Positions 3,294-59,489 of a stretch of 64,000 nt of DNA are shown piece after piece. Origin of the DNA: Planctomycetota bacterium (GTDB lineage: Bacteria > Planctomycetota > UBA1135 > GCA-002686595); contig NZBA01000050.1 of NCBI GenBank assembly GCA_002686265.1, positions 372,001 through 436,000 on the forward strand, given 5' to 3'. A program made the translations under genes and the position numbers. How positions within the stretch are numbered: the stretch's first letter is position 1; each line of letters begins with the position of its first letter. The notes below the pieces were generated by a model. The model saw only the letters and a list, made by a program, of their open reading frames with translations, did no database searches and was not told the DNA's origin.

Positions 3294-5237
<1,944 letters not shown>

Positions 5238-5373
5238 GGTCTTCCTCGCTTTCACCGCAGAGCGTAGCCGATGTAGGACCGAGATGGAGAGGACCTCTCC
5301 GTCGGCGGCGGCGAGTGGTCGGCCCCGCGCCGAACACCGTTGTACCACCGCGAATGCGGACCACCGAGGTGCG

Positions 5374-5379
5374 TATACT
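5374..5379 (+). promoter_or_regulatory. Candidate -10 element (TATACT) for the coiled-coil gene
   Basis: TATACT is one mismatch from the sigma-70 consensus and stands out in this GC-rich DNA, 33 bp upstream of the ATG at 5413. No good -35 hexamer lies 16-18 bp upstream, so this is only a candidate. Confidence 0.3.
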
Positions 5380-5412
5380 GGGCCCGAACCCGACCCCGAG
5401 AATGGAGCGAAC

Positions 5413-5700
5413 ATGGGCCTGATCAACTGGATCTTCGACATCTACCAGCACTCCGAAATCGACAAGGTGCGAGCGGAAGCCTCCGCCGCCCGGCGCGAGG
5501 TCGCCCACCTGCGCGGCGGGGGCGGGAGCCTGGACGCCGAGCGCCTCGAGAGCGCCCTGGGGGAGTTGGCCTTGGCGACCAAGACCCTGCAGCGCGTGCT
5601 GGTGGAGAAGCAGGTCTGCAGCGGCGAGGAGTTCGCCGAACGCCTGCGGCAAATCGATCTCGAGGACGGTAGGGCGGACGGGCGCGCGCCTCTGACTTGA
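5413..5700 (+). CDS. Small coiled-coil protein, function unknown
   Basis: A 95-residue protein I do not recognise. It begins with the amphipathic [12 protein letters not shown] and then runs as a charged, heptad-like helix (about residues 17-75) with a Gly4 break at about 36-39. This suggests a small coiled-coil protein that may touch a membrane or partner through its N-terminal hydrophobic face. The ATG at 5413 is preceded by GGAG at 5404-5407 and by the candidate TATACT -10. A hairpin with a T6 tract begins eight bases after the stop, so it looks like a single-gene transcription unit. That organisation argues for a real gene although no family is visible. Confidence 0.65.
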
Positions 5701-42404: not shown

Positions 42405-43142
42405 TCAGTCCAGCCCGGCGCCCTTGGCGCGGTAGTGGGCCCGCACGTCGCCGCGGCGCGCCGCTGCGAACAGGCGCGCGATACCCCCGCTCCAGGTGCG
42501 CCCGTGCTTGCCGGCCGCGGCGTACTCACGCTCCATCACGCTGTCGTGTTCGTCGATTGCATCGAGCAACTGCGCGTCATCGGGGTAGCGTCCCTCGAAG
42601 AACACGCCGGCCAGGGGGAGCCGCGGGCGAACGGGCGGCTCCTCCGCGGCCGGGCCCACGCACAGACCGAAGAGCGGCAGGACGTCCGCGGGCAGCTCCA
42701 GCAGGCGGTAGACCTCCCCGAGCCGGTTCCGCAGTCCGCCGATGAAGCACACGCCGAGGCCGGCGGCCTCGAAGCCCAGGGCGAGGTTCTGGGCGAACAG
42801 GACCGCGTCCATGACCGCCACGAGGAAATCGTCGAAGTTGGGTCCGAACTCCGCTCCGGTCCGCTCCACCACCAGCCGGTGCCTGCGCTGATCGGCACAC
42901 AGGACGAAGAACGCGGCGGCCTCCCCGACCTGCGCCTGACCGCCGCAGAGCTCCGCGAGACGCTCGCGCTCGCCACGGTCACGGACCCGGATCAGGGAGT
43001 AGGCCTGGACGTGGCTCGAGGTCGCCGCGCACTGGGCGGCCTTGACGCAGCGCGCCACCAGACCGTCCTCGACCTCCCCACCCGCGAAGCGCCGGATCGT
43101 CCGGTGCGCACGCAACAGTTCCAATAGCCCGGTCTCGTCCAT
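42405..43142 (-). CDS. NAD(P)H nitroreductase (NfsA/FRP-like)
   Basis: 245-residue flavoprotein. It has the N-terminal FMN-phosphate motif RAHRTIRRF, AAQCAATSSHVQAYS, a central NLALGFEAAGLGVCFIGG and a C-terminal lid region (REYAAAGKHGRTWSGGIARL), as in NfsA-type oxygen-insensitive nitroreductases and flavin reductases. The ATG at 43142 gives the NfsA length; upstream codons in the frame belong to the divergent promoter gap (92 bp) shared with the PEP-utiliser gene. Confidence 0.87.
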   Translation of the reverse strand: MDETGLLELLRAHRTIRRFAGGEVEDGLVARCVKAAQCAATSSHVQAYSLIRVRDRGERERLAELCGGQAQVGEAAAFFVLCADQRRHRLVVERTGAEFGPNFDDFLVAVMDAVLFAQNLALGFEAAGLGVCFIGGLRNRLGEVYRLLELPADVLPLFGLCVGPAAEEPPVRPRLPLAGVFFEGRYPDDAQLLDAIDEHDSVMEREYAAAGKHGRTWSGGIARLFAAARRGDVRAHYRAKGAGLD

Positions 43143-43234
43143 GTGCGCCAGGATAACGGCCGGGCGCCTGCCGCCACCGGACCTCTCCCCGGTCCCGTGG
43201 ACTCGATCCTCCCCAGCGGATAGGTTCCGACGCA

Positions 43235-45946
43235 ATGGGCGACGCCATCCTCTCCTTCCGCAGCCCGCCCGGGGCGCGAGCGTCGATGGGCGGCAAGGGG
43301 GCCGGCCTGTACGAGCTCGCCCACGGTGGGATGGCGGTGCCGGAGTGGTTCTGCGTCAGCGCCCAGGCCGCCGAGGAGCGCCTCGCCCCCGTCGCCCCGG
43401 AGATCGCGAGCATCCTCGCGGAGGTTGACTCCGGCGAACCCGAGCGCCTCGCGAAGGCCAGCGGAGGGCTCGTCGCCCTGGGCGCTGACGTACCACTCCC
43501 CGCGGCGACGCGGGAGGCGATCGAGGCGGCCCTCGCGGGCCTGGACGGAGAGCGCTTCGCCGTCCGCTCCTCCGCCGCCGGAGAGGACGGGGCGACCGAC
43601 TCCTTCGCGGGACAGCTCGCGACGTTCCTCCACGTCCCCCGCGACGAGGTTTGCGAGCGCGTCGCGGCCTGCCAGCTCTCCGCCTTCGCCCCGGCCGCCC
43701 TCGCCTACCGGCGACAGCGCGGGGCGGACCCGGGCGCCGTGGCCGTCATCGTCCAGGAGATGGTCACCAGCCGCTCTTCGGGAGTCCTGTTCACGGCCAA
43801 CCCCAACGGGAGCCTCGACGAGCTGGTCGTCGTGGCGGGCTGGGGCCTGGGGGAAGGCGTGGTCGGCGACGCGGTCGAGACCGACACCTTCCTCTATGAC
43901 CGCCTCACGGAGTCCTGGAGGGGCACCGTCCGCGAGAAGCGCAGCCGGATCGTCCTCGACGAGGAGAGCGGCGGCGGCACGCGCCGAGCCCAGCTCCCCC
44001 CGGACCTCGGCACGCGGCCGGTCCTCGGCGAGGAACAGCTGGAGGCCCTGCGCCAGGCCGCCGAGGAGATCGAGGCCCTGCACGGTCCGGCGCGGGACGT
44101 CGAGTGGGCCTTCGACCCCGACGGACGCCTCGCCATCACCCAGAGCCGGCCGATCACGACCCTGCCGCGCGGTGAGCTCTCGATCTTCGACAGCAGCAAC
44201 ATCGTCGAGAGTTACCCGGGCGTGACCTCGCCCTTGACCTTCTCCTACATCCGATGCGCCTACGCGCGCGTCTTCCGCGACATCGCCCGGCGCCTGGGGG
44301 TGGGACGGCGCGAGCGCGAACGCAACGACGACCTGTTCGAGAACATGCTCGGACACCTCGACGGGCGCGTGTACTACAACCTCGGGAGCTGGTATCGCCT
44401 GTTCCGCTTGGTCCCCTTCACCGGCGCCTACCTGGCGGTCTGGGAGGAGATGCTCGGGATCAAGAACCCGCGCCCGACCTCGGCGGGCACGCGACCCCTC
44501 GCCGCCGTGCGCGGCCTCCCGCGCGCCGCTCGCACCGCCGGCAGTCTGCTCTGGAACCTCGCCTTCCTCACGCCGGTCATGGAGCGCCTGCGCACACGCT
44601 TCGGCGGGATCGAGCGACGCTTCCGCGCCCTCTCCCTCGACGAGCTCGACAGCGTCGAGCTCGCCCGCCTCTACCGCTCCCTCTCGCTCGAGCTGATGGA
44701 CGGCTGGGACGTCACCCTGGTGAACGACGTCTACGCCATCGTCGGCTCGGGGCTGGTGCGAGCCGCGCTCGAGCGTGCCGGGGCCGAGGCCGACACCTTC
44801 GGCGCCCTGATGGCCGGCGACGAGGAGCTGGAGAGCGCCCTGCCCGCCCAGAGCCTCGCCCTGCTCGCCGACGCCGTGCGCTCGGACGCGCGGCTCGCCG
44901 AGGCCCTCGCCGAGGCGGCGGCACTGGACGGGGAGCCGGGCGGCGCCGGCGCCTTCCCCCACCACCCCGACTTCGCGCGCGGCTTCCAGGAGCACCTCGA
45001 ACGCTGGGGCGACCGGCACCTCGCCGAGCTGAAGCTCGAGTCCCCCAGCCTGCGCCACCACCCGCAACTGCTGGCCGGGCTGATCCTGCGCCAGGCCGAG
45101 AGCGGCCGCAGCGCCGGGGAAGCGCGGGATCACCGCCGGCGCCTGAGTGACGAAGCCCACGCCGAGGCCCGCCGCGCCTTCGCCCGCGCCCCCTCCCGAA
45201 GGGCACTGTTCGCCCTCGCCCTCTACATCGCGCGACGCTCGGTCCGCTATCGCGAGAGCTCGCGCATGGACCGTGCCCGCGGCTTCGGCATGATGCGCGA
45301 CCTGTTCCGTGCCATGGCCACCCACCTCGAGCGCGAGGGCGCCCTCGATTCGGCCGAGGACGTCTTCCACTTGACCGTCGACGAGCTGTTGGGCTTCGTC
45401 ACCGGGAGCGGCGTCGACCCGGACCTCCGTGGGATCGTCGAGCGCCGCCGCTCGGCGGGCCGAACCTGGCGGGCCGACGGCCCTACACGGGAGCGGCTGC
45501 GCTTCCGCGGCACGGTCGGCTCCCATCCGTCCCCCGCCCGCGCCGCCCCTGCGGCGCCCGCCGCCGGGGGTGGCGCCGGGGGCGGCGCCTCGACCGCGCC
45601 GCAGACCTTCGCCGGCACGGGCTGCTCGGCGGGCACGGTCACGGCCGAGGTCCTCGTCGTGCGCGATCCATCCGAAGCAACCGACACGGCCGGCAAGGTC
45701 CTCGTGGCCGAGATGACCGACCCCGGCTGGGTGTTCCTGATGATGTCCGCCGCTGCCCTGGTCGTCGAGCGCGGGAGCCTGCTCTCCCACACCGCCATCA
45801 TCGGCCGCGAGCTGGGCCTGCCGACGGTGGTCGGCGTCGAGCGCGCCTGCAGCGTCCTCTGCGACGGCGACCGCGTCGAGGTCGACGGCCGCAGCGGGGT
45901 CGTCCGCGTCCTCGGCCCGGACGATGCACGGGAGGGCGCTCCGTGA
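43235..45946 (+). CDS. PEP-synthase/rifampicin-phosphotransferase-like enzyme (copy 1)
   Basis: 903 residues. The N-terminal ATP-grasp domain (about 1-310) has KGAGLYEL, RSSAAGEDG (111-119) and QEMV. A central helical domain (about 315-760) follows. An Ala/Gly/Pro linker (about 765-797) leads to the swivelling PEP-utiliser domain with the phosphocarrier His852 in GSLLSHTAIIGRELGLPT. Relatives move the beta-phosphate of ATP to pyruvate (PpsA) or to an antibiotic hydroxyl (Rph) through that His. The PEP/pyruvate TIM barrel is missing, so the acceptor is not pyruvate and is probably an alcohol. First gene of the plus-strand arm; its stop overlaps the next start (GTGA). Confidence 0.88.
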   Translation: MGDAILSFRSPPGARASMGGKGAGLYELAHGGMAVPEWFCVSAQAAEERLAPVAPEIASILAEVDSGEPERLAKASGGLVALGADVPLPAATREAIEAALAGLDGERFAVRSSAAGEDGATDSFAGQLATFLHVPRDEVCERVAACQLSAFAPAALAYRRQRGADPGAVAVIVQEMVTSRSSGVLFTANPNGSLDELVVVAGWGLGEGVVGDAVETDTFLYDRLTESWRGTVREKRSRIVLDEESGGGTRRAQLPPDLGTRPVLGEEQLEALRQAAEEIEALHGPARDVEWAFDPDGRLAITQSRPITTLPRGELSIFDSSNIVESYPGVTSPLTFSYIRCAYARVFRDIARRLGVGRRERERNDDLFENMLGHLDGRVYYNLGSWYRLFRLVPFTGAYLAVWEEMLGIKNPRPTSAGTRPLAAVRGLPRAARTAGSLLWNLAFLTPVMERLRTRFGGIERRFRALSLDELDSVELARLYRSLSLELMDGWDVTLVNDVYAIVGSGLVRAALERAGAEADTFGALMAGDEELESALPAQSLALLADAVRSDARLAEALAEAAALDGEPGGAGAFPHHPDFARGFQEHLERWGDRHLAELKLESPSLRHHPQLLAGLILRQAESGRSAGEARDHRRRLSDEAHAEARRAFARAPSRRALFALALYIARRSVRYRESSRMDRARGFGMMRDLFRAMATHLEREGALDSAEDVFHLTVDELLGFVTGSGVDPDLRGIVERRRSAGRTWRADGPTRERLRFRGTVGSHPSPARAAPAAPAAGGGAGGGASTAPQTFAGTGCSAGTVTAEVLVVRDPSEATDTAGKVLVAEMTDPGWVFLMMSAAALVVERGSLLSHTAIIGRELGLPTVVGVERACSVLCDGDRVEVDGRSGVVRVLGPDDAREGAP

Positions 45947-46887
45947 CGCGCTGGAGGGGCATCGCGACGTTCCTGTGGGAGATGTGTCCGCCCCATCTCC
46001 TGCTTCCGGTGGGCGCGGCGCGCTTCTGCGCCGTCTACCTCGGCCTACAGGCCCTCGCCGGGCTCGAGCCCCTCGTCCTCGGCCTGCGGGCCGTCACCGG
46101 CACCGCCAGCCTGATCGGGTTCGTCGTCCTCGCCCGCGTCTACGACGAGCTCAAGGACGCCGACGCCGACCGCCGCCTGGCGGCCTCCGGAGACCCGCGC
46201 ACCGCCGACCGCCCCATCGTGCGCGGCATCGTCGACGAGAGCGACCTGCGCCTGCTGCGCAACGTCCTGATCGGCGCCCTGGTGGCCCTCCAGCTCCCGG
46301 GCGCGGCGCCCCTGCCGCTGTTCGGGTTCGCCGTCGCCCTGACCGTGTTCTGGCTCTCCTCGCACTGGTTCTTCTGGCCGGCGGTCCAGCGTCACCTGCT
46401 GCTGGCCCTGGTGACGACCAGTCCGCTCACCCTGTTCGTCCTGGCCTACGTCGCCACGCTCTTCGCCGCCGACTTCGGCGTCGAACACCTCGACGGATCG
46501 GCCGCCTTGCTGCTCGTCGGTCTGTACGCCCCGATGCTCGCCTGGGAGACCTCGCGCAAGATCCGCACCCCCGCCGACGAGACCGACTACGAGACCTACA
46601 CCCGCGCCGTCGGACCGCGCGCCGCCTTGGCCCTGCCGATCACCTTCACCCTGCTCGCCACCGGCATGCTGGCGACGGTCGCCGCGCGCGCCGGCCTGCC
46701 GCCGCCTTACTTCTGGGCCCTCGGCGGCGCCTGCACCCTGGTCGTCGGCGCCTGCCTGGCATTCGTGATCGCCCCCAGCCGCCGCCGCGCGCACCTGGAG
46801 CCTGTGACCCAGGGCTTCCTGGTCGTCGCCGACCTCGGCCTCGCGCTCGGCCTGGCGTCCACCTTCCCCCTCACCTGGGCAGGCTGA
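45943..46887 (+). CDS. UbiA-family prenyltransferase-like membrane protein
   Basis: 314 residues with eight or nine membrane helices. Two Asp-rich motifs fit UbiA prenyltransferases: DELKDADAD (68-76) and an acidic loop ETSRKIRTPADETDYET (about 201-217). The family uses them to bind Mg2+-diphosphate of a prenyl donor and attach it to an aromatic or glycerol-type acceptor in the membrane. The RPIVRG segment after motif 1 is also typical. The GTG start overlaps the previous stop by four bases. The acceptor is unknown; the context suggests a lipid. Confidence 0.82.
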   Translation: MTRWRGIATFLWEMCPPHLLLPVGAARFCAVYLGLQALAGLEPLVLGLRAVTGTASLIGFVVLARVYDELKDADADRRLAASGDPRTADRPIVRGIVDESDLRLLRNVLIGALVALQLPGAAPLPLFGFAVALTVFWLSSHWFFWPAVQRHLLLALVTTSPLTLFVLAYVATLFAADFGVEHLDGSAALLLVGLYAPMLAWETSRKIRTPADETDYETYTRAVGPRAALALPITFTLLATGMLATVAARAGLPPPYFWALGGACTLVVGACLAFVIAPSRRRAHLEPVTQGFLVVADLGLALGLASTFPLTWAG

Positions 46888-46892
46888 ATCCG

Positions 46893-48017
46893 GTGAGCGA
46901 CTCCGTCCGCGACGCCGCCTTCTTCGACCACGTGGGCTACGCCACGGTCTGGGAGGACGAGCGCTGCATCGACGAGGGCCTGCGGCCCCGACCCGGCGAC
47001 CGCGTGCTCTCGATCACCTCCGGCGGGGACTTCAGCCTGCAGTTCCTGCTCGCCGACGTCGCCTCGGTCCTCTCGGTCGATTTCAACCCGCGCCAGGACT
47101 TCCTGCTCGGCCTGAAGGTCGCCGCCCTCGCCGAGCTGTCCCACGACGAGTTGTGGCGGTTCTGCGGCCTGGAATCCTGCGGCGACCGCGCGGCCCTCCA
47201 CGCGCGCCTGCGCCACCGCCTGCCAGAGGACGCGCGCGAGTACTGGGACCGCCAGCGGGGTCCGATCGAACGCGGCTTCCTCTCCGGCGCGAAGCAGGAC
47301 CGCTTCCTGCATCGGGCGGGGGCGGTGATCACCGCCGTCCTCGGGCGGCGCGCCGTCGAACGCTACTTCGCCAGCGAGACCCTCGCCGAGCAGCGGGCCG
47401 CCATCGGGCCCAGCCTGCGCGGCCTGCCCTGGCGCGCTCTGGCCCGCGTGCTCTTCAGCCGCGCGGTCTTCAACCGCGCCTTCGACCGCGCCCACTTCCG
47501 CTACGCGACCCGCGAGCACCACCCGGCGAGCCTCCTGCGCGAGCAGGTCGAGGGCGTCTTCCTCGATCTTCCGGCACGGGAGAACTTCCCCTACCACTGG
47601 GCCTTCCGCCGCGGCTTCCGCGACCGCGAGCACTGCCCCGCCTGGCTGCGGGCCTCCGGCCACGACAACCTGCGCGACCGCCTAGGGCGGCTCACCTCGA
47701 CCGTGGCCGACCTCGAGAAGGTCCTCGAGGGCCTGCCCGACGGCTCCCTGGACTGCTTCCACTTCTCCAACGCCTTCGATTGGGTCAGCCCGACGCAGTT
47801 CCTCGTCCTCATGGGTGAGGTCGTGCGCGTCGCCCGTCCGGGGGCGCGCCTGTGCTACTGGACCAACCTGTTCAACACGCGCCGGGAGCTCGGCCTCGCC
47901 GTCGGGGCCCTGGGCGGAATCCGCGAGGAGCGCGAGCTCGCAGACCGCATCCACCGAGCCTCCCGCACCCCCGGCTACTCCTCCTGCACCGTGGGGACGA
48001 TCACCAAGGAGTGGTAG
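46893..48017 (+). CDS. BtaA-like (DUF3419) SAM:3-amino-3-carboxypropyl transferase
   Basis: 374 residues. The SAM-site block is VLSITSGGDFSLQFLLADV and VLSVDFNPRQ (about 36-68), the DUF3419 signature. In Rhodobacter BtaA this enzyme moves the 3-amino-3-carboxypropyl group of SAM to the diacylglycerol hydroxyl, the first step to betaine lipids. The C-terminal methyltransferase-like half (DGSLDCFHFSNAFDWVSP, GARLCYWTN) is also conserved. No BtaB N-methylase is beside it. The GTG at 46893 is five bases after the UbiA-like stop. The acceptor may be diacylglycerol or another lipid. Confidence 0.82.
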   Translation: MSDSVRDAAFFDHVGYATVWEDERCIDEGLRPRPGDRVLSITSGGDFSLQFLLADVASVLSVDFNPRQDFLLGLKVAALAELSHDELWRFCGLESCGDRAALHARLRHRLPEDAREYWDRQRGPIERGFLSGAKQDRFLHRAGAVITAVLGRRAVERYFASETLAEQRAAIGPSLRGLPWRALARVLFSRAVFNRAFDRAHFRYATREHHPASLLREQVEGVFLDLPARENFPYHWAFRRGFRDREHCPAWLRASGHDNLRDRLGRLTSTVADLEKVLEGLPDGSLDCFHFSNAFDWVSPTQFLVLMGEVVRVARPGARLCYWTNLFNTRRELGLAVGALGGIREERELADRIHRASRTPGYSSCTVGTITKEW

Positions 48018-48022
48018 AGCGG

Positions 48023-48937
48023 ATGGACGAGGGAACCGAGGGCGCCTACGTCGACCGCGAGAGCGGCGAGCTGTGCACTGAGCACGTCCACCAGAGCGGG
48101 CTCTTCCGGTGGCTGTACGCTTCGCGGACCGGGCGCGCGGTGCGGCGCTGGCTGACCGGATCGGGCCTCCTCCACCGCGCGGTCGGCCGGTTCGCCGATT
48201 CTCGGCCGTCGCGCCTGTGCATCCGGCGCTTCAGCACCGTCACCGGCGTGGACACCTCGGAGGTCCTGAAACCCGAGGGAGGCTTTCACAGCTTCAACGA
48301 GTTCTTCGCCCGCCGCCTGCGCCCGCAGTGCCGGCCACTCGACGCCGACCCCGAGGCGCTCGTCTCCCCCGGCGACGGCAAGCTGTTCGTCTCCGGCGAC
48401 TTGGGAAGCGGGGGACGGATCACGGTCAAGGGCTGCTCGTTCACGGCGGCCGAACTGCTCGCAGGAGCCGCCGACCCGACTCCCTACGCGGGGGGGAGCG
48501 CCGCCGTCCTGCGCCTGTACCTCCCCGACTACCACCGCATCCACTTCCCCGCCGACGGAGTCCCCGGTCAGGACCGCGAGATCCCCGGCCGCTACCTGTC
48601 GGTCACTCCCTTCCGCGGCAACGACGAGCCGTTCTACTTCCGAAACCACCGCGTCGTGAGCGTGCTCGACAGCCCCCGCTTCGGACCCCTAGCGATGGTC
48701 GAGATCGGGGGCTTTCTGATTTCCAGCGTGCGTCCCTTGTGCGCCCCGGGGCAACCCGTGCGGCGCGGCGACGAGAAGAGCCTGTTCGCCTTCGGAGGTT
48801 CGACCCTCGTCCTGTTGGCCGAGCCGGGGAGGGTGGTCTTCGACGCCGACCTCCGCGAGCACTCCGCGCGCGGCCTGGAAACCCGCGTGCGCCTGGGGAC
48901 GCGCATCGGCCTCGCGGGGCGCGCCGGCTCAGCGTAG
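48023..48937 (+). CDS. Phosphatidylserine-decarboxylase-like enzyme
   Basis: 304 residues of the pyruvoyl-dependent PSD family. SFNEFFARRLRP, VSPGDGKLF and YHRIHFPADG are present, and the C-terminal self-cleavage motif GGST has Ser260, which becomes the pyruvoyl group. Family members decarboxylate the alpha-amino acid head of phosphatidylserine to ethanolamine. Coming five bases after the BtaA-like gene, it may instead (or also) decarboxylate an aminocarboxypropyl head group. No pssA is in the window. Its 3' end overlaps that of the convergent acyltransferase gene by nine bases. Confidence 0.9.
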   Translation: MDEGTEGAYVDRESGELCTEHVHQSGLFRWLYASRTGRAVRRWLTGSGLLHRAVGRFADSRPSRLCIRRFSTVTGVDTSEVLKPEGGFHSFNEFFARRLRPQCRPLDADPEALVSPGDGKLFVSGDLGSGGRITVKGCSFTAAELLAGAADPTPYAGGSAAVLRLYLPDYHRIHFPADGVPGQDREIPGRYLSVTPFRGNDEPFYFRNHRVVSVLDSPRFGPLAMVEIGGFLISSVRPLCAPGQPVRRGDEKSLFAFGGSTLVLLAEPGRVVFDADLREHSARGLETRVRLGTRIGLAGRAGSA

Positions 48938-50029
48938 GTCCTTGGCGAAGACGGCGTAGGTCCGGTCGGGAGGGCCGGCGGCCGAGAGGATGCTGGGCCC
49001 GTCGCCGACGAGGGCGCCGGTGGCGTGGGCGTACCCTCCGCGGGAGCAGAGGTCGAGCCCGTGGGCCATGATCTCGTAGATGAGGTTCGTCTTGCGGTAA
49101 GGCTGAGTGACGCCGAAGACGAAGAACACGACCCGGTCTCGTGGATCCCGGGCCAGGGGGCCGAGTTCGCTCCCGTCGCCGTCGAGCTCGCAGAACGCAC
49201 GGGAGAGGTCCTGGTAGCCGAAGCTGAAGCCGGCGATCTCGCCCGTCTCCGGCACCTCCCAGCGGGTCAGGAACTCGGGGCGGGACAGGTCGAGGAGCGG
49301 CGCGAAGGCCTGGCGGAACTCGGGCAGGTCGATTCCGGCGCAGTGGTAGTTCTCGGCAAAGCACTCCATGATCATCGGGTGCAGGCGGTCGAGTTGCTCC
49401 CCCAACGAGGAGCTCGTCGCGTCGATCGCCCGGTACTCCCCCGCCCCCTCGCTCCGCCGGGTCAGGCCGGCGGCCACGGCGGCGCCGATCCCGCCGAGGA
49501 CCTCGCGGGGCAGGTCCCAGCTACGCCAGGTTGCGTGAGGCGCGTACCCGCCGGCCTCGACGAGGGCGCGATAGTAGGCGGGCGAGCGCGGCTCGCCGAG
49601 GAACGGCTCACGATCGAAGCCGTCGATCTGCAGGCGGTAGCCGCCGTAGACGCTGAGGTTCACCGGCCCGTGTACGACGCGGCGGCCCTCCCCCGCGAGC
49701 CAGGCCTCGGCCGCGGCGAAAAGGGCGGAGGCCACGGCGGTCTCGTCGACGGCCTCGAAGAAGCCGAAGTGCCCCGTGGCCTCGGCTGCCAGGCCCTCGT
49801 CAACCGAAGCGACGATGCGCCCGACGACCGCGCCGGAGCGCCGGCAGAGGAAGGGCTGCGCCCGGCCGTGGCGGAAGAACAGGTTCTCATCGGAGAGCTG
49901 GGCACGAACGCCCTCGCGCAGAGGCGGCACCCAACTGTGCTCCTCGCCGTAGATCCGCCAGGGGAGCTCGATGAACTCCTCCAGGTCCGCTCCCGCTCGC
50001 TCGATCGCGGTGACTTCGAGTCCTTCCAC
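48929..50029 (-). CDS. GNAT-superfamily N-acyltransferase (YghO-like)
   Basis: 366 residues. The N-terminal part (FIELPWRIYGEEHSWVPPLR, then FFRHGRAQPFLCRRSGAVVGRI) is typical of the YghO-like group. The C-terminal GNAT fold includes FFVFGVTQPYRKTNLIYEI as the acyl-CoA/ACP pyrophosphate site. Proteins of this wide group have been linked to N-acylation in lipid pathways, so an amino-lipid acceptor is plausible. The GTG at 50029 overlaps the upstream TAG by one base (TAGTG) and has a perfect AGGAGG seven bases before it. Last gene of the minus arm. Confidence 0.8.
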   Translation of the reverse strand: MEGLEVTAIERAGADLEEFIELPWRIYGEEHSWVPPLREGVRAQLSDENLFFRHGRAQPFLCRRSGAVVGRIVASVDEGLAAEATGHFGFFEAVDETAVASALFAAAEAWLAGEGRRVVHGPVNLSVYGGYRLQIDGFDREPFLGEPRSPAYYRALVEAGGYAPHATWRSWDLPREVLGGIGAAVAAGLTRRSEGAGEYRAIDATSSSLGEQLDRLHPMIMECFAENYHCAGIDLPEFRQAFAPLLDLSRPEFLTRWEVPETGEIAGFSFGYQDLSRAFCELDGDGSELGPLARDPRDRVVFFVFGVTQPYRKTNLIYEIMAHGLDLCSRGGYAHATGALVGDGPSILSAAGPPDRTYAVFAKDLR

Positions 50030-52734
50030 TAGCTCGCCTCCTCTCGCCCATCGGTGCCGCCGCCGGAGGCGGCGCGGATCGTTCCTCGGTCGCCGTCGAG
50101 GGTCACGACCTCGCCGTCGGACAGCACGGAACACAAGTCCTTGACCGCCAGAACCGCCGGGATGCCGTACTCGCGCGAGATGACCGCCGCGTGGGAGAGC
50201 AGGCCGCCGGTCTCGGTCGCCACCCCCGCCAACAGGCCAAAGCGCGGCGTCCAGCCCGGATCGGTGTAGCGCGTGGCGAGCAGGTCGCCCGCCTCGAGGC
50301 GGTCGGCGTCGAAGATGTCGCGGATGACCCTCACGCGGCCGGTCACGACTCCCGGACTGCACGGCACGCCTCGCAACTCGCCGCCGGCCGCGCCCCCCGC
50401 CGCCCGGGTCAGGGCGGCATAGCGGTCCCCGATCTCGTCGGGGTTGCGGTAGTGGCGGAAGGAGCGGTAGTAGAGGCGGTTTCGCATCACGAGGTCCGCG
50501 ATCGCCTCCCGCGTGCGCGCACCACTCATCACCGCCAGCAGCTCGTCAACCGACAGGAAGAAGACGTCGTCCGGCACGGCCAAGAGGCCCGCATCCACCA
50601 AGCGCTCCGCCACCGCCAGGGTGAAGCGGCGCACGAAGAAGTAGAAGCGGGTCGAGAGGTCGCGTAGCTCCTCACGCCACCACAGGAACTCGCGTAGGCG
50701 GTCGAGCTTGGCGGCGAGGGAGCGGCGGCGGTACCAGGGGGCGAGGCGCAGCACGCGCTCGCGCTCGGCGCGGTAGGCCTCGTGGGCTCGCGCATTCGCG
50801 CTGCGCGGGTCGGCATCGTCGTCGAGCTGCAACAGCCCGCGGCAGTGCTCGACGACGATGCGCGGGTCCTCGCCGTAGCGCGGGACCGAGAGATCGAGCT
50901 CGCGCGTCGCGTGGTGACGGGAGCGCCGGACCACCTCGGCCAGCTCGCCGAGAAAGTGCTCCTTGGATCCCTCGAGCATGGCGCGTGTCAGGTGCGCGTC
51001 GTCCGTGCTCGCCCAAGCCTCGCTCGCGGCGGGCGAGCCGCGGATCTGGCGGCTGACGTCCCACAGCTCGTAGTTTGGCAGAAGGTGCGAAACGTCGGTC
51101 AGTCCGGAGAAGAGGGTCAACAGGTCGACCTCTCCCCGGAGCTTGGCGAAGGCGCCCTTGTAGAGCGACTGCAGGTTCGAGTTGTTGTAGACGAGGGTGA
51201 AGTAGGTGCCCTCGCTCTGAAAGTAGTCCGGTCCGATCAGCTTCTCGTAGAGGGCGAACAGCTCCCTGCGCTCCAGGGTCGCCGGGTCGATCCCGTCCAG
51301 CTCGGCCAGGCGGCGGTTCTGGCGCGCGGTGTGCACCTCGAACAGGGCGCTCTGCTCCCGGATCGCGCGCTGGAGGGCCAGAAACACCCGCGCGGCGTTC
51401 CACAGGGTGCGCGGTGTGACCTTCGAGGTCAGCCCGCGCCCTTCGTAGGCGACCTCGATCCCCAGCTCCTCGTCGAACTCGCGCTCGACGAAGCCGGGGA
51501 TGGCCAGGAAGCACTGCTTGACGCGTTGCAGGTTCCAGTAGGGGCGGCCGAAGAACATGTCGCCCCAGCGGGTCCCCTCGTCGGTTCCCAACAGGCGTAC
51601 CCTACTCAGGTACTCCGGCATCGTGCGCTCGAAGATCGTGTCGTAGAGCGACCACATGAAGGGCGTGCAGACCGAGGAAGACACGCCGCCGTCCTTGAAG
51701 TCCGCGGTTGACCACTCGCCCGGGATGCCGCCGGTGCGGATGGTGGTGATCGGCCGCGCCTGCAGGACGAACAGCCGCCCGTCGGCAAAGGCGAACTCGA
51801 TGTCCACCGGGAAGCCGTACTCCGCCTGGATGCGGACGGCGACGTCTCCGAGCTCGGCGACCTCCCCCCCCGTCAGCACCTCGCCGCGGCGCAGCTCCTC
51901 GCCGAGGGGCTCCTTGCACACGAGCTTCGGCGGTTCGCCGGCCACCAGCGCGTGGGTCTGGTCGGGAGCCGTGCGCTCGAGCTCGGCCCGCCGGTACCAG
52001 TCGTAGCGCACCTGTTCAGGAGTCACGCTGCCGCCGACGAGGGCCTCGCCCAGCCCGCGGCAGGCCTCGATGACCAGCTCGGTGTCGGCGCCGGTGAGCG
52101 GGTTCACGGTGAAGACCACACCACTCTTCTCGGCGGGGACCAGCTCCTGTAGGACGACCGCGATCGAGAGGTCGGCGAGGGAGATCGCGTGGTCGAGGCT
52201 GTAGGAGAGCACGCGCTCGTTGAAAGCCGACGCCCAGCACTCCCGGATCGCGGCCCCGACCTGCTCCGCCCCGCTCGCCCCGAGCACGCTCGTGTACATC
52301 CCGGCGAAGGAGGCGCCCGCGAGGTCCTCCTTCGTGCCGCTCGAGCGCACGGCGAAGCGGATGCCCTCGCCGCGCGCCGCCACGAAGCTCTCCAGGTCGC
52401 GCGTCAATCCCGCGGGGAACGGCGCCGATACGATCGCCTCCCGGGCGCGCCCGGCGAGCTCGAGGCAGCGCTCGCGCTCCGCGGGCGGACAGGAGCGCAC
52501 GGCGGCGACCGACTCACGCGCTCCGCCCTCGCTCACGAAGGCCTCGAACGCGCCGGTCGGGACCACGGCTCCGGGAGGGACGCGAAACCCCCAGCCGGCG
52601 AGGCGCACGAGTCCCTCGGCCTTCTTCCCCGCCGCGCCCAGGCGCGCGGGGTCGCGCGCCAGCTCCGCGAACTCCACCAGACACCCGCCAGCGTCCGTGG
52701 GCTCCACCTCGCCGCACTCAGTAGCTCGGCGCAT
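50029..52734 (-). CDS. PEP-synthase/rifampicin-phosphotransferase-like enzyme (copy 2)
   Basis: 901 residues with the same order as the copy at 43235: ATP-grasp with RSSGTKED (130-137) and QELVPAEKSGVVFTVNP; a large helical middle; and the swivel domain with His848 in GGLLSHAAVISREYGIPA. The two copies are equal in length and family but clearly diverged, so this is not a recent duplication. It lacks the pyruvate-binding barrel. The ATG at 52734 overlaps the end of the aminotransferase fusion by 17 bp, giving translational coupling. The acceptor is unknown. Confidence 0.88.
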   Translation of the reverse strand: MRRATECGEVEPTDAGGCLVEFAELARDPARLGAAGKKAEGLVRLAGWGFRVPPGAVVPTGAFEAFVSEGGARESVAAVRSCPPAERERCLELAGRAREAIVSAPFPAGLTRDLESFVAARGEGIRFAVRSSGTKEDLAGASFAGMYTSVLGASGAEQVGAAIRECWASAFNERVLSYSLDHAISLADLSIAVVLQELVPAEKSGVVFTVNPLTGADTELVIEACRGLGEALVGGSVTPEQVRYDWYRRAELERTAPDQTHALVAGEPPKLVCKEPLGEELRRGEVLTGGEVAELGDVAVRIQAEYGFPVDIEFAFADGRLFVLQARPITTIRTGGIPGEWSTADFKDGGVSSSVCTPFMWSLYDTIFERTMPEYLSRVRLLGTDEGTRWGDMFFGRPYWNLQRVKQCFLAIPGFVEREFDEELGIEVAYEGRGLTSKVTPRTLWNAARVFLALQRAIREQSALFEVHTARQNRRLAELDGIDPATLERRELFALYEKLIGPDYFQSEGTYFTLVYNNSNLQSLYKGAFAKLRGEVDLLTLFSGLTDVSHLLPNYELWDVSRQIRGSPAASEAWASTDDAHLTRAMLEGSKEHFLGELAEVVRRSRHHATRELDLSVPRYGEDPRIVVEHCRGLLQLDDDADPRSANARAHEAYRAERERVLRLAPWYRRRSLAAKLDRLREFLWWREELRDLSTRFYFFVRRFTLAVAERLVDAGLLAVPDDVFFLSVDELLAVMSGARTREAIADLVMRNRLYYRSFRHYRNPDEIGDRYAALTRAAGGAAGGELRGVPCSPGVVTGRVRVIRDIFDADRLEAGDLLATRYTDPGWTPRFGLLAGVATETGGLLSHAAVISREYGIPAVLAVKDLCSVLSDGEVVTLDGDRGTIRAASGGGTDGREEAS

Positions 52735-55693
52735 CCTTGATCCGCCCCAGGGCGAAGCCGTGGCTCTCTGCCACCTCCATGATCGCCTCCACGCGCTCGA
52801 TCGAAATGGACCCGAAGCTGTAGTGCTCGTCGATCCCCTCCAGCCCCATCAGCATGGACTCACTGACGCAGGCATAGGTCTCCCCGGTCGCCACCGAGAC
52901 GCCGGGGATGCGAAAGTCCTCGTTGCACGGGAGGCGCACGACTCCTCCGAGGATCACGGTCACGTCTGGCCGCTCGGTACGCACGGACGGGTCGGTGTCG
53001 GTCGGCACCGAGATGTCGCAGATCACGACCGGTCCCTCGCCGAGCATGGAGGGAAAGAGGATCGGCGCGGGATCGTTGGTCGTGCTGACGATCAAGTTCG
53101 CGTCGGTCAGGTCGGACAGGTCCCCGCTGACGCGGACGGGAGCCTCGCGCCCCAGGGTCCGCTCGAGTTCGGCGAACAGCCACGGCCCGACGTCCTCGAC
53201 CTGCTCGCTGCCGTTCAAGAGCCCCCCGACGGTCTCGCTCCTCCAGAGGGCGCCCGCGATCCCCCCGAGCGCGGTGCGCTCCGCGGCATCGCTCGCGCGC
53301 AGCGTGTCGAGGGCGGTTTCGTAGATGCGGGCGGCCACCGCTCGCAGGCGCCGCCGGTGGGCCGGCCGGCCGACGAGCAAGAGGCGCGGCACGCGCCGCG
53401 CCAGGAGCTCGCCGTAGACGCTGCCGATGTTGCCCAGGGCGCCGATGACGGCGGCGCTTCCCGCGGCGAACTCGATACCCTCCTCCTCCGCGGTCCGCAC
53501 GAGCGCCTCGAACCCCATGGCGACCGTCAGGGAGTTCCCCGAGGTCAGGGCCAAGGGCCCGGTGTTCTTCACGTCCAGGCAGTTGTTGGTGATGATCGAA
53601 GTGAATCCGCCGTAGCCCATCACCTGGCAGCCCGTGCTCTTGGCCAACTCGACCGCGATGTCGATCTTGTCGTCGAGGAAGTGGCGGTTGCGCGCCCGCA
53701 TGTGGGCGCCGATCGTCGCCGAGGACTCGAACAGGGCGATCAGCTGGAAGTCGACCAGAGCGCCGCTCGCCGAGCGGATCGGGATCGCCGGCATCAGGAA
53801 CGGATCGACGAGGTCCTTGAAGCGGTCCAGCAGAGAGCCCAACTGCTCCTCGGAGAAGCCCTCCAGGCCCGGATCGAAGTCGATCAGATCGCGCGGGTGG
53901 ATGAAGTGCCCGAGGAAGGCGACCCTGCGCGCGGCGCGGGGAGGAGGAGGCGGCGGAGCGGGGCGCCTGCGGTCGGCGATGCCCTGGGGGTCGTCGGGGC
54001 TCTCCAGGCCGGCGATGAACTTCAACAACTCGTGCGTGTTCTGCTTCTCGATCGCCTCGCACAGCCGGCGGATCCCCTCGGCGAGGCGGTCGCAGTCGTC
54101 CTCGGTGATGCGGTAGGAGGGTTCGAGCCGCAGGGTGTCGCTGTTCGAGAGTGTCGGGAACACGCGCAGGCGGTGCTCGTGGAGCAGGTAGCCGGCGACG
54201 ACGTAGCCGAAGAGGTGCTGCTGTCCGAGGGCGCGCAGGGTCGTGCAGGACGACTCGGTCTGAGAGCACAGCTCCAGGCCGATCATCAGCCCGCGGCCGC
54301 GCACCTGTTCGATCACGCCGGGAAACTCGCTCCGAATGGCCTCGAGCCGCTCGATCAAGCTCGCCCCAATGCGCTGACAGCTCGCGTACACCTCGTCGTC
54401 CCGCTCGAGCAGATTGAGCGCGGTCACGGCCAGTGCGGCGCTGTGGCAGTCCTCGGCGAAGGTCGAGGTGTGGATGCGGCCGAACCGCTCGTCGTACTGC
54501 GCGGCGTCCATCAACAGCGCGGAGACCTTCGCCATGCCGCCGCCGAGGCTCTTCGACAGCAGGTAGTAGTCGGCTACGACGCCTTGTTGCTCGGAGAACA
54601 GGAACGTCCCCGTGCGCCCCATGCCGGTCTGGATCTCGTCGAACACCAGGGGGAAGCCGCCCGCCGTCGCCTCCTCGCGGCAACGCTCCAGGTAGGCCTT
54701 TGGCACGACGTGAATCCCGCCCTCGCCCTGGATCGGCTCGACGAAGAAGCCGGCGATGTGGACCAGCGGGATCTCCTCCACCGAGAGCTCATCACCCTCG
54801 GCTCCGGCGCGCACAACCGGGCGGTAGAGGGTGCTCGTACGCCCCGCGACGGCCTCGTGCAGGGCCGCGACATCCCCGCAGGGCACGAAGGCTGCCTCGA
54901 TGCCGAAGCCCACGAAGGGCTCGCGGTACTCGTCGCTATGAGTGAGCTGAACGGCTCCGCTCGTCTTGCCGTGGAAGGCCCGCTCGAGGGCCAGGAAGAC
55001 GGGTTTCCCAAGCCCCTCGAGGGTCCCGCGGTTGACGGCGTCGAGGCGCTCGAGCGCCTCGGCCAACGCCCCCCCGCGCGCGTCGTCGTCCGCCTCCGGG
55101 CGGTGCACCAGGGTCCGCAGCTCCAGCACCGCCGTGGGCGGGTGCTCGGAGAGCTCGGCGGGGAGCTGTGGTGCGCCCACGACCTCGCGCAGCCGTCCAC
55201 CAACGGCCACCCTCGCCAGGTCCCGGCGGCGCGAGATGCGGACTCCGTCGGCGCGCAGGTCCCGTACGAGGGCTCGCAGGCGGTTGTTCCAGACCAGGAT
55301 CGCGTGCTTGATCGCGCCCTCGACCGCCTCGGCCCCGGAGTTGGCCAGGGTCGTCAGGTAGCGCCGCCCGGTGCGTCTGGCCAGCATCTCCCCCAGCCGC
55401 GCGCCGACCTTGGCTGCCTCCGGCCGGGCGCTGCCCTGGCTGTTGAAGGGCAGGCCCTCCGCCAGGGTCCTCTGGGCGCGGGCGACCAGCTCGGGGGGGT
55501 TGTGGCCGAACAACGCGGCCCCGAAGCCTCCCACGAAGTCACACACCTCGACCTCCCGTCCGTCCTCGCCGCGGTAGAACAGGGACGCTCCCTGGCCGCA
55601 GTGATAGACCTTGTCCATCCGCATGGCGTGCAAGCGCTTGCCGATCGAGGGCCGGCAGTGCTCGGTGTACCTGGCACTGTGAGATTGAGGCAC
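52718..55693 (-). CDS. Class III aminotransferase fused to acyl-ACP-reductase-like domain
   Basis: 991 residues from the GTG. Residues about 10-555 are a class III PLP aminotransferase (VGGFGAALFGHNPP, ANSGAEAVE, AFHGKT, FDEIQTGMGRTG, PLP lysine Lys381 in SKSLGGG), with an extra insertion at about 139-229. A proline linker (575-590) joins residues about 589-991, which resemble cyanobacterial aldehyde-forming acyl-ACP reductase. That half has GGFTSII (695-701), TSGNSLT (717-723), NADPH loop GALGNIGS (751-758) and Cys942 in YACVSESML, aligned with the acyl-accepting Cys. It may reduce an acyl thioester to an aldehyde and aminate it. The start is uncertain: ATG 55753 sits in a possible -10 (TAGAAT), so GTG 55693 is preferred. 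Confidence 0.85.
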   Translation of the reverse strand: MPQSHSARYTEHCRPSIGKRLHAMRMDKVYHCGQGASLFYRGEDGREVEVCDFVGGFGAALFGHNPPELVARAQRTLAEGLPFNSQGSARPEAAKVGARLGEMLARRTGRRYLTTLANSGAEAVEGAIKHAILVWNNRLRALVRDLRADGVRISRRRDLARVAVGGRLREVVGAPQLPAELSEHPPTAVLELRTLVHRPEADDDARGGALAEALERLDAVNRGTLEGLGKPVFLALERAFHGKTSGAVQLTHSDEYREPFVGFGIEAAFVPCGDVAALHEAVAGRTSTLYRPVVRAGAEGDELSVEEIPLVHIAGFFVEPIQGEGGIHVVPKAYLERCREEATAGGFPLVFDEIQTGMGRTGTFLFSEQQGVVADYYLLSKSLGGGMAKVSALLMDAAQYDERFGRIHTSTFAEDCHSAALAVTALNLLERDDEVYASCQRIGASLIERLEAIRSEFPGVIEQVRGRGLMIGLELCSQTESSCTTLRALGQQHLFGYVVAGYLLHEHRLRVFPTLSNSDTLRLEPSYRITEDDCDRLAEGIRRLCEAIEKQNTHELLKFIAGLESPDDPQGIADRRRPAPPPPPPRAARRVAFLGHFIHPRDLIDFDPGLEGFSEEQLGSLLDRFKDLVDPFLMPAIPIRSASGALVDFQLIALFESSATIGAHMRARNRHFLDDKIDIAVELAKSTGCQVMGYGGFTSIITNNCLDVKNTGPLALTSGNSLTVAMGFEALVRTAEEEGIEFAAGSAAVIGALGNIGSVYGELLARRVPRLLLVGRPAHRRRLRAVAARIYETALDTLRASDAAERTALGGIAGALWRSETVGGLLNGSEQVEDVGPWLFAELERTLGREAPVRVSGDLSDLTDANLIVSTTNDPAPILFPSMLGEGPVVICDISVPTDTDPSVRTERPDVTVILGGVVRLPCNEDFRIPGVSVATGETYACVSESMLMGLEGIDEHYSFGSISIERVEAIMEVAESHGFALGRIKDAPSY

Positions 55694-57576: not shown

Positions 57577-58395
57577 TCAGCGCTCCCGTGCCACATGCAC
57601 GAGGACGATACCCAGGGCGCCCGCGGAGGAGAATGCCAGGGCGCTCCCGAGCAGTTCGGCCCCGATCCCGGCCCCGAACGCACCGGACAGAGCAGCGCTC
57701 CACCGCGTCCACTGCAACCAGAGAACGAGCGGCCCGCCGTAGGCGAGGGGGCCCATCCAGCGCGCAGAGGCTTGCGCGGCCCGCAGGGCGAGGGCGGCGA
57801 CGAGGAGCACGAACAGCCCGTGGTTCGAGAACCCCGCGAGGTCCGCGGGCGCGGGCGCGACGAAGGGCACGGCCGCGGCGAGGTCGGCGAGGGACGCGGC
57901 CCGCCCCTCGCGAACCTGAGGTCCCGCCGCCGTGGGCCGGAACTCGATCCAGCGCCACTCCCCTTCACCCTCGCGCAGGGCCGCGCCCCAGACCTCGCCC
58001 GTGGCCCAACTGACGCGCCCTCGATCGGGGCGGGCCACCCTCGCCGAGAGGAGCGCGTCCCCCGCCGCGAGCACGGCCAGGGAGAGGGCGAGGGCACCCG
58101 CGGAGATCCGGGCGAGGGGCAGGCCGGCGCAGGCCACGATCGTGTGCTGGCGCCTCGCGACCCACAGAGCGATGGCGCCGGAGAAGCCGACGGCACAGGC
58201 GAGGGGCCAGCAAGCGAGGAGGTGCTCGAAGGCGGCCTCGATGGCCTTCGCCGCGATCCGTCCCGGCGTGGAGGCGCCCAGCTCGTGCGCGTAACGGAAG
58301 GCCGACTGCACCAGACTCAAGGTGGCCACGACCGCCGCGGCGGCCACCGTGTGGCGCAGTACATCGGCCGCGAGGTGCCGCCCGAGGCGCCTCAT
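57577..58395 (-). CDS. LptG/YjgQ-like permease
   Basis: 272 residues. Membrane helices at about 12-32, 58-78 and 92-112 come before a periplasmic beta domain (about 115-185), then three more helices at about 193-262: the LptF/LptG layout, but shorter than the usual 350 residues. With the partner gene it may form the permease that extracts lipid (LPS or another outer-membrane lipid) using an LptB ATPase encoded elsewhere. ATG 58395 overlaps the upstream stop by four bases. Confidence 0.7.
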   Translation of the reverse strand: MRRLGRHLAADVLRHTVAAAAVVATLSLVQSAFRYAHELGASTPGRIAAKAIEAAFEHLLACWPLACAVGFSGAIALWVARRQHTIVACAGLPLARISAGALALSLAVLAAGDALLSARVARPDRGRVSWATGEVWGAALREGEGEWRWIEFRPTAAGPQVREGRAASLADLAAAVPFVAPAPADLAGFSNHGLFVLLVAALALRAAQASARWMGPLAYGGPLVLWLQWTRWSAALSGAFGAGIGAELLGSALAFSSAGALGIVLVHVARER

Positions 58396-59489
58396 GATCT
58401 CCACACCGGCGCGCGCAGGACCAGCCAGACGACGGCGCCGGGAGCCACGGCGGCTCCCCCCAACAGGACCGTGGCCATCCGCGGAGCGTCGGCGGCGACC
58501 GAGCGCGCCCCGGAGATCATCCAGGCCGAGAGAACACAGACGAGCCCGCACGCCACCAGGCTGGGCAGCGCGCGGTCCCCCAGGGGTGGGAGGGTAGACA
58601 GGCACAGCGACAGCTGCAAAGCCACCAACAAGGGCAACGCCGCGAGCAGCAGGCGGTAGAGGGGCTCGACCGCGTAGCGGTTCGCCGCCCGCCGCGCCGC
58701 CCGGCCGGCGACGGCGCGAGCCTGCCGAGCGTCGGCGGCGAGCCGGGGGAGGGGGCGGCTGTCCGCCTTGCGCCATGGGCCGGACCCGTCCCGAACGAGC
58801 GCGGCCAGTTGGGCCTCGACGCGGGATCGGCCGAAGCGGAGCGGCTCCTCGCCGAGGCCCCCGCCGACCACCACGCCGTCGGTCAGATCGATGACCAGAC
58901 CTCCCTCTCGGTCGAGGGTGAAGCTCGCCTGGGCCGCTCCCAGGGCCGCGAAGGCCTCGCGCGAGTCCTCCACGACGAGCGCGAAGTCCCCGACCTCTCC
59001 GCCGCCGACGGGGCGGCCGAAGAAGGCGAGGTGCTCGAAGCGCTGCGAGCCGCCGCGCTCCGCCAACAAGGCCCCGACGTCCTCCGCGCAGAGCCAGTCC
59101 GTTCCCCGAACGGTGCGCGCGGCAGCCGGGTGCACCTCCACCAGCAGCATGGCCGACGCCAGGCTGAGCAGAGCGGCCGGCACGAGGATCCAGCACAACG
59201 CCCAGGCCGGCGAGCGCGTGCCGAGAGCGAGCGCCAGACTCTCTCCGCTTTCGTGCAGGCGGGCGTGGAGCAGGGCGACGCCCCCGGCGGCAGCCAAAGG
59301 GAACAGCAGGGGCGCGCAGAGCACCGTCGCAGTCTTCACCGCGAGCCAGGGCCGCAGGGCGAGCAGCGCCTCCCCCTGCCCCCCGTCGCCGGCGAGCAGG
59401 GCGAGGAGCAGCAACGGGCCGAGGGCCGCGAGCACGGCCAAGGTCGCGTCAGAGGCGTTGCGAACGAGGTACTGCGCGAGGGCGGGCAT
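58392..59489 (-). CDS. LptF/YjgP-like permease
   Basis: 365 residues: N-terminal helices (about 16-34, 49-70, 92-115), a periplasmic domain (about 120-265) with ESREAFAALGAAQASFTLD, and C-terminal helices (about 275-355). The pattern GESLALALGTRSP after helix 2 is typical of YjgP/YjgQ proteins. It forms a pair with the next gene (ATGA overlap), as LptF and LptG do. The pair is diverged, so its substrate might not be classical LPS. Confidence 0.72.
   Translation of the reverse strand: MPALAQYLVRNASDATLAVLAALGPLLLLALLAGDGGQGEALLALRPWLAVKTATVLCAPLLFPLAAAGGVALLHARLHESGESLALALGTRSPAWALCWILVPAALLSLASAMLLVEVHPAAARTVRGTDWLCAEDVGALLAERGGSQRFEHLAFFGRPVGGGEVGDFALVVEDSREAFAALGAAQASFTLDREGGLVIDLTDGVVVGGGLGEEPLRFGRSRVEAQLAALVRDGSGPWRKADSRPLPRLAADARQARAVAGRAARRAANRYAVEPLYRLLLAALPLLVALQLSLCLSTLPPLGDRALPSLVACGLVCVLSAWMISGARSVAADAPRMATVLLGGAAVAPGAVVWLVLRAPVWRS

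Follow-up and report, generated by a model that had tools for sequence, protein, structure and literature searches.

Which compound is made by a protein that joins an aminotransferase to an acyl reductase of the acyl carrier protein (ACP)-dependent type, encoded next to genes for lipid enzymes? The question is raised by a Planctomycetota bacterium, in whose contig NZBA01000050.1 (assembly GCA_002686265.1) we analyzed a stretch of 64,000 nucleotides (positions 372,001 to 436,000; hereafter the window). The protein, here called AT-AAR after its aminotransferase (AT) and acyl-ACP reductase (AAR) halves, is probably a TamH-type fatty-amine synthase in a putative aminolipid pathway. A reaction of this kind is already known, and it is the conserved gene set around the enzyme that is apparently undescribed. 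The gene is placed as follows:

52718-55693, minus strand: AT-AAR, a TamH-type fusion of an aminotransferase (residues ~1-550), a linker (~565-588) and a reductase (589-991)

As a preliminary description made from the sequence alone had stated, this is a single open reading frame (ORF). It encodes 991 amino acids from a GTG at 55693 (an in-frame TTG 69 bases 5' of it is a possible alternative start). Residues 38-542 match the class III aminotransferase family Aminotran_3 (PF00202, 8.2e-54; Pfam) and include Lys381, the pyridoxal phosphate lysine. Behind the Pro-rich linker, the C-terminal domain features a nucleotide-binding glycine loop (residues 751-757), a TSGN motif, Cys942 and Glu945. This half matches the NCBIfam profiles of long-chain acyl-ACP reductase (TIGR04058, 9.9e-19) and of PigE (6.2e-29), and among PDB sequences it matches PigE (4ppm, 6e-15) and Synechococcus AAR (6jzq, 9e-14). 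A profile built from nine AAR domains likewise found PigE (1.2e-44) and AAR (1.5e-36) as the best families, with glutamyl-tRNA reductase (8.8e-6) following far behind. The scores indicate kinship and not membership: the match to TIGR04058 reaches 67.8 bits against a curated cut-off of 449.7, and the match to the PigE equivalog, whose domain order is reversed, reaches 314.5 bits of the required 850.

Residue conservation points the same way. Cys942 lies opposite the catalytic Cys294 of Synechococcus AAR (position counted from the alignment), where the preliminary description had placed the acylated cysteine, and K381, D352, G751, G754 and C942 are identical in all 58 aligned full-length fusions, among which Glu945 is also invariant. 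The reading of the glycine loop as an NADPH site holds in part: a dinucleotide-binding loop is present, NADPH is unsupported, and sequence cannot tell the cofactor. In the AlphaFold2 model (mean predicted local distance difference test [pLDDT] score 91.8, predicted template modelling score 0.88), the two domains are predicted with confidence, and so is their position relative to each other. A Foldseek search with the whole model placed the aminotransferase half nearest to CrmG (3.3e-43); its top 50 matches were all aminotransferases with no reductase listed, so that the reductase half is assigned from sequence profiles.

The preliminary description knew of no characterised enzyme for such an acyl-to-amine step; this was wrong. 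PtTamH, from the tambjamine YP1 pathway of Pseudoalteromonas tunicata, consists of a class III transaminase followed by an AAR-type thioester reductase and accepts C7-C14 aldehydes; in 2022, together with the acyl-ACP enzyme PtTamA, it was shown to convert C12 acid via C12-ACP into the C12 amine, dodecylamine (PMC9594044). Its aldehyde intermediate was detected when the amino donor was omitted, its cofactor is NADH and not NADPH, and its substrate is acyl-ACP and not acyl-CoA (PMC9594044). PigE also combines reduction and transamination, with a domain order that is the reverse of that in TamH (PMC8341465). AT-AAR shares the domain order and the catalytic Lys and Cys of PtTamH; however, it is ~32% identical over both domains to the tam-cluster homologue in locus L087, belongs to another clade, and adjoins a phosphoenolpyruvate (PEP)-synthase-like gene (PEPS1, see below) and lipid enzymes without bipyrrole genes nearby. 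Cyanobacterial AAR (PDB 6jzq, 6jzu) is akin in sequence family and acyl-Cys mechanism, but it is stand-alone and NADPH-dependent and passes its aldehyde to ADO for alkane synthesis. By analogy with the characterised homologue, AT-AAR likely forms an amine from an acyl chain: the AAR domain would load the chain from ACP onto Cys942 and reduce it to the aldehyde with NAD(P)H, and the aminotransferase domain would turn the aldehyde into a long-chain primary amine. Profiles, conservation, the confident model and PtTamH all support this originally proposed sequence of acyl thioester, aldehyde and amine, and channelling of the aldehyde between the two active sites is plausible.

The domain pair is widespread. 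Because a nine-domain alignment was too diverse for a genome scan, a four-domain profile was used instead; 80 of the 308 relatives that it returned were kept and, with loci from a Planctomycetota survey, yielded 81 further fusions, all of them full-length and with the aminotransferase first, which excludes an assembly artefact. They come from Planctomycetota, Spirochaetota, Pseudomonadota, Myxococcota, Actinomycetota, Cyanobacteriota, Bacteroidota, Gemmatimonadota, Calditrichota, Chloroflexota and several candidate phyla. Among 392 sampled Planctomycetota genomes, 17 carry the fusion (reductase match below 1e-20), none of them among the listed members of the window genome's own family. In the AT-AAR tree, the nearest relative is from an Arabian Sea planctomycete metagenome-assembled genome (MAG; 77% identity); the window protein falls within a set of ten rows (99% support) with Spirochaetota, Undibacterium and others, and the seven tam fusions group in a separate clade (100%) that excludes it. 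Planctomycetota also possess the PigE order, reductase first and aminotransferase second (L046:9590-12364, L047:7587-10172). A shorter AT-AAR subgroup of ~800 amino acids (L065, L067, L070, L074, L078, L096) has a FemAB/GNAT-type acyltransferase gene downstream instead of PEPS1, and perhaps represents an N-acyl alkylamine pathway.

In the window, AT-AAR is accompanied by six further genes, on which the preliminary description had made no remark:

50029-52734, minus strand: PEPS1, a PEP-synthase-like phosphotransferase/ligase with PPDK_N and phospho-His domains
48929-50032, minus strand: tandem-GNAT acyltransferase-like protein (by Foldseek), a candidate N-acyltransferase
47984-48937, plus strand: second phosphatidylserine-decarboxylase-like gene (PSD) with intact catalytic motifs; the true start lies inside the interval
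46887-48017, plus strand: DUF3419 protein of the BtaA-type S-adenosylmethionine 3-amino-3-carboxypropyl transferase family; the true start lies inside the interval
45943-46887, plus strand: UbiA-like membrane protein (NCBIfam PRK13592, below cut-off)
43235-45946, plus strand: PEPS2, a second PEP-synthase-like protein in a clade of its own

Together with AT-AAR, these form two convergent operons of overlapping genes, one on the plus strand (PEPS2-UbiA-DUF3419-PSD) and one on the minus strand (AT-AAR-PEPS1-GNAT); PEPS1 shares 17 bases with the end of AT-AAR, and both the GNAT gene with the PEPS1 end and PEPS2 with the UbiA gene overlap by 4 bases. L048 has the same set and L064 a rearranged version of it; subsets occur in L053, L073, L089, L109, L052 and L092. 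DUF3419 (PF11899, 2.2e-56; Pfam) is the sole copy in the window genome. Homologues of the UbiA-like protein (PRK13592, 4.5e-25, under the profile's cut-off) occur in clusters L029, L048, L053, L064, L073, L089 and L105, and those of the GNAT protein in L048, L064 and L073; the latter has no Pfam match, and its model (pLDDT 79) resembles the tandem GNAT 2wpw (Foldseek, 1.1e-10). Next to the cluster, here and in L048, lies an NfsA-type nitroreductase gene (42405-43235, minus strand; NCBIfam PRK10765, 1.9e-53). Two neighbouring ORFs at 57577-59489 (minus strand) look by eye like LptF/LptG-type permease subunits. Searches of open-licence papers on lipids with fatty amines, on DUF3419 paired with a decarboxylase, on PEPS together with CarS and on elaiomycin clusters gave no account of the cluster.

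PEPS1 retains the ATP-binding PPDK_N and the mobile phospho-His domains, and Pfam found no C-terminal PEP/pyruvate-binding domain of PEP synthase. Its best PDB matches are 5fbs and 5hv1, which we take to be rifampin phosphotransferases deposited under the PEP synthase name. PEPS1, PEPS2 and TamQ each form one fully supported clade, that of PEPS1 (100/100) standing apart from TamQ, and PEPS1 tracks the fusion over several phyla. Each of the 16 Nocardia loci fetched encodes AT-AAR and PEPS1 as a single protein of ~2000 amino acids, and in Mycobacteroides (L113) they are adjacent genes; thus, the two very probably work in one pathway. The Nocardia loci (L104:8258-14305, L098, L101, L111 and others), in which an ACP gene lies directly 5' of the AT-AAR/PEPS1 ORF, followed by genes for a fatty acyl-AMP ligase (FAAL), a P450 and PEPS2, represent the system in a compact, actinobacterial form. 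Genes for FAAL and ACP, which correspond to TamA, adjoin many of the fusions. The nocuolin A cluster similarly combines an aminotransferase, an acyl-ACP reductase, FAAL and ACP, but its NocF and NocG are reported as separate genes and its product is another (PMC5333925). Five loci (L106, L107, L112, L121 from Streptomyces scabiei 87.22, and L123) join AT-AAR to FAAL, ACP, phosphopantetheinyl transferase, nitronate-monooxygenase-like and AurF-type N-oxygenase genes; they are candidates for making N-oxidised (azoxy-like) fatty-amine natural products.

What, then, becomes of the amine? In Undibacterium (L052), a tight operon runs AT-AAR, PEPS1, CDP-archaeol-synthase-like (CarS; 1.5e-22), archaetidylserine-synthase-like (4.5e-26), PSD (1e-94) and PEPS2, so that all three families of archaeal-type headgroup assembly stand beside the fusion. 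CarS-like genes near the fusion also occur in Spirochaetota, Alteromonadaceae, Myxococcota and Planctomycetota. With the threshold for CarS at E < 1e-7, which we set at a visible gap between full-length CarS and partial, CdsA-looking matches, the 392 Planctomycetota genomes include 15 with CarS and 17 with the fusion; nine have both, versus 0.65 expected (p = 2e-10), and the association persists when counted by family (7, p = 1e-5). CarS was not found in the window genome, and the window cluster differs from the archaeal-type set in carrying DUF3419 and PSD in place of CarS and the serine transferase. Its PSD lies directly behind DUF3419, whereas the usual partner of BtaA in betaine-lipid synthesis is a BtaB-type N-methyltransferase, giving diacylglyceryl-trimethylhomoserine. 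Six genomes with a cluster PSD were checked, and in each of them PSD occurs exactly twice, once inside the cluster; the window genome's other copy is on contig C65. The window PSD has intact SPGDG, DYHRIH and GGST motifs. DUF3419-linked PSDs (window, L048, L064) keep DG, DYHR and GGST and have GGFLISS in place of the VGRI of the CDP-transferase-linked and housekeeping PSDs compared (L052, L037, L128); the sample is small, and the replacement may mark a change of substrate.

From the Undibacterium operon, the co-occurrence with CarS, the second PSDs and the position of PSD behind DUF3419, we infer that the lipid of the window cluster bears an aminopropyl-type headgroup. A lipid as the cluster product falls a little short of an even chance, and the order of the later steps is doubtful. 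PEPS1 would act on the amine or a derivative, possibly by activating a partner through phosphorylation, as proposed for PigC/TamQ, or alternatively by phosphorylating a hydroxyl group in the manner of rifampin phosphotransferase. The lipid core might be finished with the help of PEPS2, UbiA and GNAT; DUF3419 would attach a 3-amino-3-carboxypropyl group and the second decarboxylase would leave a 3-aminopropyl headgroup, a counterpart of the route from CDP-lipid through serine to ethanolamine in the Undibacterium operon. More broadly, we tentatively suggest a widespread bacterial membrane-lipid pathway whose hydrophobic chain is brought in as a primary amine, the product of AT-AAR, and not as an acyl group. 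PEPS-like enzymes would join the chain to the core, and an amino headgroup would be built by a decarboxylase together with either CarS and a serine transferase or the DUF3419 transferase.

Several observations weigh against this proposal. No fusion of the window clade has a known product, and the roles given to UbiA and GNAT are conjectures drawn from fold similarity and low-scoring profiles. The window cluster includes no FAAL or ACP gene, and the acyl donor is hence assumed to come from fatty-acid synthesis; the only AMP-binding homologue found in the window (ORF 3297-5441), considered as a TamA-like activator, was rejected as an ordinary acetyl-CoA synthetase. CarS and the fusion share a contig in just two of the nine genomes (G037, G309; the MAGs are fragmented), and their co-occurrence is partly phylogenetic. 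DUF3419 is present in 86 of the 392 genomes, mostly without the fusion, and was rejected as a pathway marker on its own.

The aminolipid pathway has one serious competitor, which is possible though well short of probable: the cluster could make a secreted natural product (an N-acyl, N-phosphorylated or azoxy alkyl compound), with PSD and DUF3419 tailoring a small molecule and not a membrane lipid. AurF N-oxygenase genes in Streptomyces and Undibacterium fusion loci, MMPL exporters in some loci and the patchy distribution of the fusion are consistent with this, as is the capacity of PSD-family enzymes such as PsiD to decarboxylate free amino acids. However, a CDP-lipid synthase, a CDP-alcohol serine transferase and PSD in one operon fit a membrane-lipid headgroup better, and CarS co-occurs with the fusion at the genome level. 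An unlikely alternative is that the aminotransferase acts on a short or branched substrate (a PigE-like pyrroline cyclisation or an amino acid semialdehyde) and the reductase serves another acyl thioester. PigE is among the top NCBIfam matches, is likewise an AAR-type reductase and class III aminotransferase in one protein (PMC8341465, PDB 4ppm), and class III aminotransferases are promiscuous; yet PigE has its reductase first, acts on a 3-acetyl acyl thioester and gives a product that cyclises, whereas AT-AAR has the domain order of TamH, no homologue of PigD was seen among the cluster genes, and the FAAL and ACP partners beside relatives indicate fatty acids.

It is very improbable that AT-AAR serves a tambjamine- or prodiginine-type pigment, with PEPS1 condensing the amine with a bipyrrole aldehyde like TamQ/PigC. 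TamH is indeed the closest characterised fusion and PEPS1 is homologous to TamQ/PigC, but PEPS1 is just 24% identical to a TamQ, both window proteins fall outside the tam clades with full support, the cluster companions are lipid enzymes, and the other ORFs of the window include no match to the 4-methoxy-2,2'-bipyrrole-5-carbaldehyde (MBC) genes of tam loci. A degenerate reductase half, which would leave the protein a mere aminotransferase and which the scores far under the AAR and PigE equivalog cut-offs might suggest, is scarcely credible given the nucleotide loop, TSGN motif, Cys942 and Glu945 conserved or invariant over many phyla and a model that is confident through the whole reductase domain.

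With this probable TamH-type fatty-amine synthase, the family of single proteins that convert fatty acids into fatty amines, a biocatalytically useful reaction, is no longer confined to a few pigment clusters but extends over more than ten phyla. Should the cluster indeed make a lipid, these bacteria would contain membrane lipids derived from amines, a class that would escape ordinary fatty-acid analyses.
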